Assembly: GCA_009929485.1 (NCBI GenBank)
Contig: SAAJ01000001.1
Span: 62,001 to 126,000 of the forward strand
Length of the DNA stretch: 64,000 nucleotides
DNA from: Negativicutes bacterium
GTDB taxonomy: Bacteria; Bacillota; Negativicutes; Anaeromusales; Anaeromusaceae
Direction: 5' to 3'
Below are positions 43,593 to 45,502 of this stretch, piece after piece; position 1 is the stretch's first letter, and every line of letters begins with the position of its first letter. The translations under genes and the position numbers were made by a program. The notes beneath the pieces were generated by a model. The model saw nothing but the letters and a program-made list of their open reading frames with translations. It had not been told where the DNA came from and ran no database searches.

Positions 43593-45032
43593 TTAGAAGT
43601 ATAGATCCCGCGTGCCGCTTTGGATTTTTGCCAGCTCGCGGCGGGTTGCGTCGCGGACGTCGTTCTGGGGAATTGATGCCAGCTGTTCGGCGATTACTTT
43701 TTCTCCCACACTGCGAGTTTCTTCATCCGCATAATCAAGAAGATATTCCTGGAGCGTCAACAGAGCGTTGGGGAGACAGACATTTTGAATTTCTCCGGTT
43801 TTTGCCAGCGCCATGAAGCGGTCGCCAGTGCGTCCTTGGCGATAGCAGGCAGTGCAATAGGAAGGTACATAACCTTGGGCGCAGAGCATGCGGATGATCT
43901 CGTTGGGCGAGCGGCCGTCGCTAGGCTCGAATTGCATGCCGCTGCTTTCAGGATCCAGGTGCTCGCCAGGGTGTGCCTGCAGTTGCGCGTAACCGCCGAC
44001 ACCGGTACAGGAACCGGCGCTGATTTGAGAGATGCCGTAGCGGATAAGGCGGTCTCTTGTACCTGGTTCTTCACGGGTTGACAGGATCATACCTGTATAA
44101 GGAACTGCTAAGCGGATGATGGCGATGATTTTAGCGAACGCTTCGTCGTCGACTAGATAAGGGAAGGTTTCCAGATTGATGCCGCTGGCCGGGCGCATGC
44201 GCGGTACGGAAATAGTATGCGGGCCGACGCCGAAAGTGCGCTCCAAATGTTCGGCATGCAGGAAGATGGCCACGGTTTCGTATTTATAGTCGTAGAGGCC
44301 GTAGAGAACGCCTAACCCTACGTCATCGATACCGGCTGTCATAGCGCGGTCCATAGCAGTGGTGTGCCAGTTGTAGTCTTGTTTCGGTCCGCCTGGATGA
44401 AGGGCCGCATAAGTAGGTCTGTGATAGGTTTCCTGGAAAAGAATATAAGTGCCAATGCCGGCTTCTTTTAGTTGCTTGTATTCGTCAATAGTCGTGGCGG
44501 CAATGTTGACATTGGCCCGGCGTATACTGCCGTTACCGCTTTTGCTGGCGTAAATTTCCTTGAGCATGTCGGTAACATAGCTGATAGGACAGTTGACCGG
44601 ATCTTCGCCAGCCTCGACGGCCAGACGTTTATGGCCCATGTCTTCGAGGATTTCCGCTTCGCGGCGGACTTCTTCGGCGGTGAGGCGGCGGCGCAATTGT
44701 TTTTCGTTACTGCAACGGTAGCCGCAGTAAGTGCAATTGTTGACACAGTGGCTGGACAGATACAGCGGTGCAAAAATGACGATACGCTGACCGTAAATGT
44801 CTTTTTTTATTTGCTCAGCCGTTTGAAATAGTTCTTCTTGCAGGTTCGAGTCTTCAACTTGGAGCAAGACCGCCACCTCTGCTGCAGTCAATCCTTGGTG
44901 TTTGGCGGCTTTGGTGATGATCGCGCGGACTTGAGCGGTATCGCGGGCTGCTTTTTTTCCTGCGGCCAGCAGCTCTTCTATACGGGCCTGATCGATAAAG
45001 GCGTCGCTGGTACGTTCTACATTGCTAATCAT
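43593..45032 (-). CDS. hydG: FeFe-hydrogenase maturase HydG
   Basis: A 479-residue radical SAM tyrosine lyase. SSHCVNNCTYCGYRC holds the CxxxCxxC site. The C-terminal CTAC...C motif (YCTACYRQGRTGDRFMALAKTGEIQNVCLPNA) binds the auxiliary cluster. It splits tyrosine to supply CO and CN ligands for the H-cluster. hydE and hydF are not in the window. ATG 45032 follows AAAGGAGG by nine bases and overlaps the upstream TM1266-like gene by eight. A folded leader precedes the pair. Confidence 0.96.
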   Translation of the reverse strand: MISNVERTSDAFIDQARIEELLAAGKKAARDTAQVRAIITKAAKHQGLTAAEVAVLLQVEDSNLQEELFQTAEQIKKDIYGQRIVIFAPLYLSSHCVNNCTYCGYRCSNEKQLRRRLTAEEVRREAEILEDMGHKRLAVEAGEDPVNCPISYVTDMLKEIYASKSGNGSIRRANVNIAATTIDEYKQLKEAGIGTYILFQETYHRPTYAALHPGGPKQDYNWHTTAMDRAMTAGIDDVGLGVLYGLYDYKYETVAIFLHAEHLERTFGVGPHTISVPRMRPASGINLETFPYLVDDEAFAKIIAIIRLAVPYTGMILSTREEPGTRDRLIRYGISQISAGSCTGVGGYAQLQAHPGEHLDPESSGMQFEPSDGRSPNEIIRMLCAQGYVPSYCTACYRQGRTGDRFMALAKTGEIQNVCLPNALLTLQEYLLDYADEETRSVGEKVIAEQLASIPQNDVRDATRRELAKIQSGTRDLYF

Positions 45033-45294
45033 GAACAGGTGCCTCCTTTTTCGCTGTAAGTGCTGATTTGACAATTACGCCGGGCAGATTTCCCAAACGA
45101 CCGGTGAAGGCGCCCACGTCGTCGGTAGAGCCTTCCACAATCAAGGCGATGACGCCTGAATCTGTGCCGTGATGAGGGATGCCCATGCGGCCAACAATGA
45201 GATGACGGTACTGGCTGATTAATTGGTTGACCTTGCCGGCGATGGTTTCGGGAGATTCTACGACAATGCCGACGACGCCAATACGTTTTTCCAC
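45025..45294 (-). CDS. TM1266-like iron-only hydrogenase system regulator
   Basis: An 89-residue protein starting MEKRIGVVGIVVESPETIAGKVNQLISQYRHLIVGRMGIPHHGTDSGVIALIVEGSTDDV. It is a small ACT/NikR-C-like fold that is nearly always next to hyd maturase genes and is called hydrogenase system regulator. No DNA-binding domain is present. It overlaps hydG by eight bases; GAAGGAGGG precedes its ATG. Confidence 0.9.
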   Translation of the reverse strand: MEKRIGVVGIVVESPETIAGKVNQLISQYRHLIVGRMGIPHHGTDSGVIALIVEGSTDDVGAFTGRLGNLPGVIVKSALTAKKEAPVHD

Positions 45295-45309
45295 ATAAAC
45301 CCTCCTTCG

Positions 45310-45428
45310 CAGTCCTGGCTGAAAAATGCAAAAGCCTCCCTACAGACGCAAGCTGAGAGAGGCGCAGAAAAACAAAAAAGCCTCTCCGACCGCGCAGGTA
45401 AAACCCCCTTGCGTTCACAGCAGGACCG
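45310..45428 (-). promoter_or_regulatory. Candidate transcription attenuator/riboswitch before hydG
   Basis: On the minus strand three nested helices can form: CGGTCCTG/CAGGACTG (45428-45421 with 45317-45310), ACGCAAG/CTTGCGT (45414-45408 with 45352-45346) and GAGAGGC/GCCTCTC (45386-45380 with 45363-45357). The strand GCCTCTCT can instead pair with AGGGAGGC (45341-45334), a terminator stem followed by TTTTGCATTTTT. The two folds exclude each other. I do not recognise the class. Confidence 0.6.
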
Positions 45429-45496
45429 AAATGTATGTTCCTTGGCAGCTTGCTTAAAAACATTTAAACATTCTGTCTCAGAATTACTTTTTTCTT

Positions 45497-45502
45497 ATTA
45501 TA
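45497..45502 (-). promoter_or_regulatory. -10 box of the hydG leader transcript
   Basis: A perfect TATAAT on the minus strand about 200 nt before the TM1266-like start; no good -35. A small hairpin ATTCTG/CAGAAT follows directly (45485-45471). Confidence 0.5.

Follow-up and report, generated by a model that had tools for sequence, protein, structure and literature searches.

In the window, the whole stretch of 64,000 nucleotides analyzed here, the minus strand carries a TM1266-family gene with a GTG start (45025..45294; TIGR03959, 99.1 bits against a cut-off of 60.8; PF21699, 92.9 bits), followed by hydG (43593..45032, its start set at the ATG at 45032; TIGR03955, 662.6 bits against a cut-off of 312.15), in agreement with an initial annotation of this DNA that had named both genes. 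The TM1266 protein has a relative of solved structure, 2nzc. Its gene is preceded by a Shine-Dalgarno sequence, AAGGAGGG (45300..45307), and by a leader whose promoter combines a TATAAT -10 box at 45497..45502, present where the annotation had reported it, with a possible -35 element, TTTACG (45526-45521), across an 18-nt spacer. The annotation had proposed for this leader an attenuator or riboswitch-like device of three nested helices, in which one strand of the inner helix can pair elsewhere to form a terminator. The segments on which that proposal was built, GCCTCTCT (45363-45356), AGGGAGGC (45341-45334) and TTTTGCATTTTT (45333-45322), are all found at these places on the minus strand, and correspond to the terminator 5' arm, GCCUCUCU (45356..45363), its 3' arm, and the U tract, UUUUGCAUUUUU. 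Inspection and folding show the terminator as a GC-rich hairpin with a U tract directly behind it; a simple terminator scan admitting only loops of 3-8 did not list it. Its 5' arm is also the partner of an antiterminator strand, GGAGAGGC (45380..45387), which formed the inner helix of the annotation. The pairings of GGAGAGGC with GCCTCTCT and of GCCTCTCT with AGGGAGGC, of 8 pairs each, one of them G-U, are mutually exclusive, as had been claimed. The middle helix joins ACGCAAG (45414-45408) to CTTGCGT (45352-45346), the latter lying in the terminator loop. Folding gives the terminator form as the minimum (-49.0 kcal/mol), with the antiterminator form less stable at -44.7 kcal/mol.

Taken alone, the leader is a mildly unusual sequence, with a fold z-score of -1.74 (12 of 200 shuffles equally good), and the window contains 3 promoter-like sites against 2.9 expected. 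This single-window evidence being weak, we judge the leader to be real from the comparison across its relatives. Relatives of TM1266 were gathered from 60 genomes (38 of them with a match) and from a species collection (64 loci). The first set comprised 17 of the loci L001-L033 showing the core pattern CAAGGG...CCTG, which were cut by this pattern and an upstream UCUG or UCUA and aligned with MAFFT (alignment A1); this selection accounts for part of the CAAGGG and CCUG invariance in A1, but not for the pairing changes. Two structures, P1 and P2, were first drawn by eye on A1, and RNAalifold, applied unaided to the MAFFT alignment, returned P1 and the core of P2 with 17 pairs, 9 of them with compensatory changes. 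Over the 21 pairs of A1, 89.8% of cells are paired, against 77.3 +/- 1.3% in shuffled and at most 52.6% in slid controls, and the covariation score is 0.375 against 0.177 +/- 0.018; nearly all of this covariation stems from P1, with only one of the nine P2 pairs changed on both sides. A covariance model built from A1 (R1) and run over the window and 93 loci yielded 37 matches at E values up to 1, including Clostridia outside its training set. Models R2 and R3 were built from 37 and 63 sequences, respectively; L034, L045:4818, L080 and L146:916 were too weak for the 63-sequence alignment (A5) and were excluded. The 37-sequence alignment (A3; 90.7% paired, covariation score 0.463 against 0.187) and A5 (90.4% paired, 0.510 against 0.199) are fitted to the structure and hence biased towards it. 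In both of them P2 covaries as well. Changes on both sides were seen at 18 of the 21 pairs in A5, including 6 of the 9 P2 pairs, and in the P1 helix at 9, 9 and 12 of 12 pairs in A1, A3 and A5, respectively. Judged by this comparison, the leader belongs to a cis-regulatory RNA that is conserved and structured, its helices covarying within the 5' UTR. Strong covariation, rather than the lack of it, was found among the relatives, and the reading of the leader as attenuator or riboswitch-like stands.

In the window the whole conserved element spans 105 nt (45378..45482, minus strand), and it is matched by R1 at 60.8 bits and by R2 at 56.2 bits, the identical L001 being in both training sets. P1 (45439..45482) consists of UCUGA, a covarying hairpin and AAGGA, here UCUGA at 45482-45478 and AAGGA at 45443-45439, enclosing a stem of GACAG (45477-45473) with CUGCC (45448-45444) whose single A-C mismatch is replaced by a pair at the same position in L002. 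A spacer that differs among relatives (45421..45438) separates it from P2 (45385..45420), where CGCAAGG (45413-45407) pairs with CCUGCG (45398-45393) and an outer CUG (45420-45418) with GGA (45387-45385); the outer strand in the genus of the window is off consensus and atypical. P2 is pseudo-symmetric, each strand approximating CCUGA, a helix of 2-4 pairs, and AAGG. As read from the sequences by eye, its central helix varies as a unit by lineage, being CGC/GCG in L137 and L147, UUGC/GCAA in L042, CC/GG in L036 and CAGA/UCUG in L211. One possible reading of the CUGA/AAGG steps is that purine mismatches flank a G-U or C-G pair. P1 is missing from some leaders, and P2 therefore appears to be the core of the element. 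The sensing part would comprise P1 and P2 (45482-45385), which the initial annotation had not seen as such. Of 23 Negativicutes leaders, 20 show a -10-like box with at most one mismatch within 22 nt upstream of the UCU of the element, whereas 57 of 368 control windows do; hence, the RNA probably begins at P1. The strongest conservation, accompanied by compensatory stems, lies upstream of the terminator (A120 in 62, G122 in 63, C134 in 63, U135 in 61 and G149 in 62 of the 63 sequences, with C111 in 60). This argues against a plain terminator and antiterminator devoid of a specific sensor, or leader-peptide attenuation, in which the speed of transcription or translation would set the outcome; the terminator and antiterminator that such an account needs both exist, and yet we consider it scarcely probable.

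The distribution of the element links it to a coherent set of genes. Among 250 Negativicutes genomes, 28 have a match (E up to 0.1), and 27 of the 28 matches precede a TM1266-family gene, an association to be expected in part, as the training sequences of the models were TM1266 leaders. Twenty-six of these precede TM1266, and nine matches that R1 was not trained on, including one from the same species as the window, are followed by TM1266 and then a hyd gene. The 27th, L121, has the element before a TM1266-family gene (TIGR03959, 113.8 bits) and then a NifH-like gene that falls below the nifH and CfbC cut-offs, and L122 has neither gene. By eye, L029 has, as in L121, a P2-like leader and a TM1266-family gene, followed by a NifH-like and a NifD-like-looking gene. 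In the phylum sample, R2 recovered 26 matches in 24 of 398 genomes, 21 of which, the window included, precede TM1266, hydG, hydE, hydF, aspA or the gene for an ECF-type S component. In the class of genome G469, R3 found 34 matches in 25 of 26 genomes, and all 34, six of which were already in the R3 training set, precede hydG, hydE(-hydF), TM1266(-S component), hydF-aspA or the S component. A set of 22 named genomes gave 17 matches in 14 genomes, 12 being training loci and five new; of the latter, two precede hydG (C. bowmanii and C. tyrobutyricum), two an operon for an SsuC-like permease (C. carboxidivorans and C. muellerianum), and the last has no related gene behind it. Tindallia has the element ahead of aspA-hydF-hydG, and in L094 the S component follows the element and TM1266. 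The RNA extends past TM1266-hydG operons and past the Negativicutes. Reference proteins scored over their cut-offs for HydF (459.3 and 571 bits), HydE (384.5 and 331.2) and HydG (514.5), and those for AspA over NF008909 (569.5 and 653.7) and below TIGR00839. As judged from these gene neighborhoods, the RNA is associated with the genes of the H-cluster maturation pathway and with importers.

The element is not universal among the relatives searched. Matches without related genes, namely L122, L127, L140, L142, L143, L145 and L215, were set aside. A search at E 0.05 gave no match in 8 of the 22 named genomes, all with TM1266 (C. magnum, C. drakei, C. thailandense, C. ljungdahlii, C. ragsdalei, A. 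pronyensis, Clostridium sp. CF012 and Rectinema), two of these failures reflecting lost sensitivity, as smaller searches do recover L052 and L080. Of the genomes in the phylum sample, 213 exceed the HydG cut-off and 200 have TM1266; at least 26 of the 213 carry the known element, a lower bound as most genomes were searched with R2 and strict filters. No element was seen by eye before the S-component genes L175, L178 and L180-L183.

The terminator of the window recurs with the element. A simple finder placed a terminator-like hairpin within 220 nt of the element in 57 of 63 cases, and a good terminator hairpin lies within 130 nt in 53 of the 63. Over these 53, the duplex of the P2 3' strand and its flank with the 5' arm and loop of its own terminator has a mean of -12.1 kcal/mol, against -10.0 +/- 0.31 after random exchange of terminators between organisms (0 of 20,000 as low; as these tests use related sequences, this and the permutation figures below are not strict probabilities). 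Against shuffled arms the mean z is -1.38, with 17 of 53 elements singly below p 0.05, and a spacer control gives z -0.01; L001 alone gives z -1.99 (p 0.047). The antiterminator pairing is thus matched within species, and the exclusive folds first noticed in the window are backed across relatives. The P2 5' strand behaves comparably: in the window ACGCAAG (45408..45414) has CUUGCGU (45346..45352) in the terminator loop as its alternative partner, and the L001 duplex of the two regions has -10.6 kcal/mol. In 16 Negativicutes the P2 5' strand pairs with the loop region of its own terminator at -8.34 kcal/mol, against -7.40 +/- 0.28 on permutation (8 of 5,000 as low); with a wider target, tested in 14 Negativicutes, 4 of 5,000 are as low. 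The same strand set against the outer halves of the terminator arms gives no signal in the 16 Negativicutes leaders. The 31 non-Negativicutes give a weak loop signal (220 of 5,000 permutations as low), and the outer-3'-arm control there was spoilt by some duplexes that did not form. Both P2 strands find a second partner in the 5' half of the terminator, and this accounts for the inner and middle helices of the initial annotation, which are both borne out by species permutation, together with its idea of a middle-helix strand trapped in the terminator loop, for which the Negativicutes provide comparative support. Its outer helix, of the spacer with the stretch before the Shine-Dalgarno sequence, pairs in L001 and L002 but finds no support beyond the genus (own -11.8 against permuted -12.3; 4074 of 5000 as low, with 14 of the 16 leaders long enough to enter the test). 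In leaders of S-component genes that have P2 only, the Shine-Dalgarno sequence, located a few bases upstream of the start codon, is formed by the P2 3' strand. Going by both platforms, the terminator and the Shine-Dalgarno sequence, closure of P2 should turn the genes off. The predicted pairings indicate that the expression platform is exclusive with the fold of the sensing domain.

We propose, with somewhat better than even confidence, that this leader works in cis as an OFF switch for H-cluster assembly of the [FeFe] hydrogenase, and that it represents a riboswitch-like class not yet catalogued. Transcription would start just upstream of P1, as the -10 box implies, and P1 and P2 would together form the sensing domain. 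With effector bound, P2 would be held closed and neither of its strands would be free for the antiterminator; the terminator before TM1266-hydG would form and transcription would stop. Without effector, P2 would open, its 3' strand would pair with the 5' arm of the terminator, and the operon would be read, the P2 5' strand in the Negativicutes pairing in addition with the terminator loop. In the forms with P2 only, closure would hide the Shine-Dalgarno sequence and block translation. The fold, the alternative pairings and the gene set find support in the comparison; the OFF direction and ligand binding we infer.

Control by terminator or Shine-Dalgarno sequence has precedents. THF-II/folE and HMP-PP riboswitches are terminating or Shine-Dalgarno-hiding OFF switches with simple hairpin aptamers. 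The present RNA resembles such simple-hairpin types in its conserved 5' leader with small covarying hairpins, in its use of a terminator or Shine-Dalgarno sequence, and in preceding the genes of one cofactor pathway together with transporters, but unlike them it matches no Rfam family in the loci scanned. At the gathering level of Rfam 15, the window yielded only five tRNAs far from the leader, and 36 other loci a single tRNA; at E values up to 10, the window leader gave two matches of 11.4 and 8.3 bits (gathering 35 and 105), and at E up to 0.5, 15 loci gave four matches, none overlapping an element. The idea of a known Rfam class was accordingly dropped at these thresholds and loci, in keeping with the annotation, which had recognized no class. 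In the titles and abstract starts among the matches listed by a search of the open literature, in which the spelling [FeFe] may be missed, the RNA is not described. Main-text passages of PMC8457756, PMC11109978, PMC8632094, PMC3543383 and PMC10418091 mention no such leader, and riboswitches appear in those of PMC3543383 in connection with other genes. Within the literature and Rfam as searched, the kind of leader is known, whereas its class and regulon appear new. The Moco RNA motif (PMC2408646) lies upstream of genes for uptake and synthesis of a metal cofactor. The present RNA likewise precedes synthesis genes of a metal cofactor along with putative uptake genes, but it belongs to a different pathway and is without an Rfam match.

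The genes beside the maturases bear on what the switch might sense. PMC11736057 links AspA to H-cluster synthesis, places aspA near hyd operons and reports that ammonia-lyases supply the nitrogen of the dithiomethylamine ligand, and in PMC3543383 aspA sits between hydG and hydF. The S component resembles PF12822 (E 5.1e-9 in one sequence and, below the Pfam cut-off, 8.5e-7 in another; a third sequence had no hit); it fits no equivalog in NCBIfam, and a solved-structure search with its alignment found no relative (best E 0.23). The second importer is an ABC system whose binding protein is SsuA-type (TIGR01728, 190.8 bits), its nearest PDB entry being the aliphatic-sulphonate-binding protein 2x26 (E 3e-17). 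In the two Clostridium genomes with this SsuABC-like importer, the P2 helix is changed and yet paired, as CAGA/UCUG. The importer link consists of one S-component family and two ABC loci (element E 0.001 and 0.008), and these neighborhoods suggest that the importers may serve the H-cluster pathway. Several further loci were noted. By eye, the apparent end of a tryptophanyl-tRNA synthetase gene stands ahead of the P2-only leader and its S-component gene in L170-L174. In L044, L060 and L087, TM1266-like genes stand ahead of genes for the binding protein and permease of an SsuA/SaoP-like importer (the family scan covering L060 only), and L060 and its relatives have a further type of leader. In L021 and L022, TM1266 is followed by an aspA-like gene, as judged by eye, and the leaders have a P2-like symmetric stretch, CCUGCGGAA..AGG...CCUGACGCCAAGGG, with no R3 match at E 10.

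The initial annotation had put forward tyrosine, SAM, iron or redox state as possible signals. Genes for synthesis and import under one RNA are the usual mark of a metabolite riboswitch. As one RNA precedes the maturation genes and two unrelated importers, we favor as the most likely effector a small molecule that H-cluster assembly produces, consumes or takes up, and regard this as reasonably probable. The purine-rich internal loops might instead bind a metal ion, iron being the obvious candidate, as the loops are small and the pathway under the RNA assembles an iron centre. Against this, no iron importer or storage gene was recognized among the first downstream genes inspected, and to our knowledge neither PF12822-type S components nor SsuA-type binding proteins are iron systems; we deem a metal-ion riboswitch improbable. 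As for the small molecule itself, an H-cluster intermediate or building block, such as the iron-carbonyl-cyanide synthon of HydG or a precursor of dithiomethylamine, made through HydE/F/G and AspA and imported by the ECF S component and the SsuABC-like system, is a conjecture to which we give little credence. Were it correct, the precursor would be salvageable, vitamin-like and shared between microbes, and TM1266 would belong to the same sensing system.

The position of TM1266 calls for weighing a different effector. Ribosomal protein leaders and attenuation of the TRAP/PyrR type exemplify protein-binding leaders with short repeated conserved stems before the regulator's own gene. With its short repeated stems upstream of the gene for a candidate regulator, the present RNA resembles such autogenous leaders, and TM1266, perhaps as a dimer, could bind the pseudo-symmetric P2 and repress its own operon and other hyd genes in a protein-dependent attenuator. 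TM1266 is often the first gene after the RNA; the approximate CCUGA-N3/4-AAGG on both P2 strands and the repeated small internal loops could be a protein site; and relatives of TM1266 carry other conserved leaders. In the phylum sample, TM1266 is present in all 26 element-carrying genomes with HydG against 153 of the 187 others (Fisher p 0.018, kinship not corrected), and in a second, overlapping set of 38 genomes searched, 34 of the 36 with the element have TM1266 over its cut-off; the two that fall short are genomes of 82% and 68% completeness. This co-occurrence is suggestive only as a sign of an effector role, for it is partly a consequence of models derived from TM1266 leaders. Unlike autogenous leaders, moreover, the RNA also precedes operons that start not with TM1266 but with hydG, hydE-hydF, the S component or an ABC importer; L004, L010 and L012 have TM1266 and no element match even at E 10; and importers of two unrelated kinds suit a metabolite better than TM1266 as effector. 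We take TM1266 to have an ACT-like fold, it has a weak likeness to NikR_C (E 0.074), and we know of no DNA-binding domain in this small protein. On balance, we hold the TM1266-dependent attenuator, the main rival, to be rather unlikely, and prefer the metabolite-sensing switch.

The control of [FeFe]-hydrogenase cofactor assembly in anaerobes is poorly known, and TM1266 figures in databases as just a putative regulator. An RNA standing before hydG, hydE, hydF, aspA, TM1266 and two kinds of importer offers a direct handle on H-cluster regulation: knowledge of its effector would reveal which quantity the cell monitors in building the H-cluster, and the importers hint at a compound possibly acquired from outside for this purpose. 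The RNA is also a possible control part for hydrogen-producing Clostridia.

Other leaders were seen at loci of this kind. In Spirochaetes and a Brevinematales genome (L061, L063, L069, L072, L077, L079 and L084), P1 is recognizable by eye before TM1266, and R3 matched L061 at E 2.2e-5, L079 at 0.0057, L084 and L072 weakly, and the others not at all. A stretch near UCUGAUCCrrAGG in these loci could pair with the first codons and cover the Shine-Dalgarno sequence and start, a pairing left uncertain as these codons are also fixed by the protein. A different and highly conserved leader type was found in L024, L025, L027, L028 (1280-1500, plus strand) and L030 (1735-1955, minus strand), before TM1266-like genes beside an apparent HydG gene. 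It consists of the block CAUGAGGGUUyGUCCCAAAUGAGAAGGCG...AGAAUAG and a terminator, with 74% mean column identity over the five sequences; four of the five loci were scanned against Rfam and gave no match. The five tRNA genes of the window, of near-equal score and three of them identical, lie on its plus strand at 40-123, 140-222, 1317-1400, 1423-1506 and 1525-1607.
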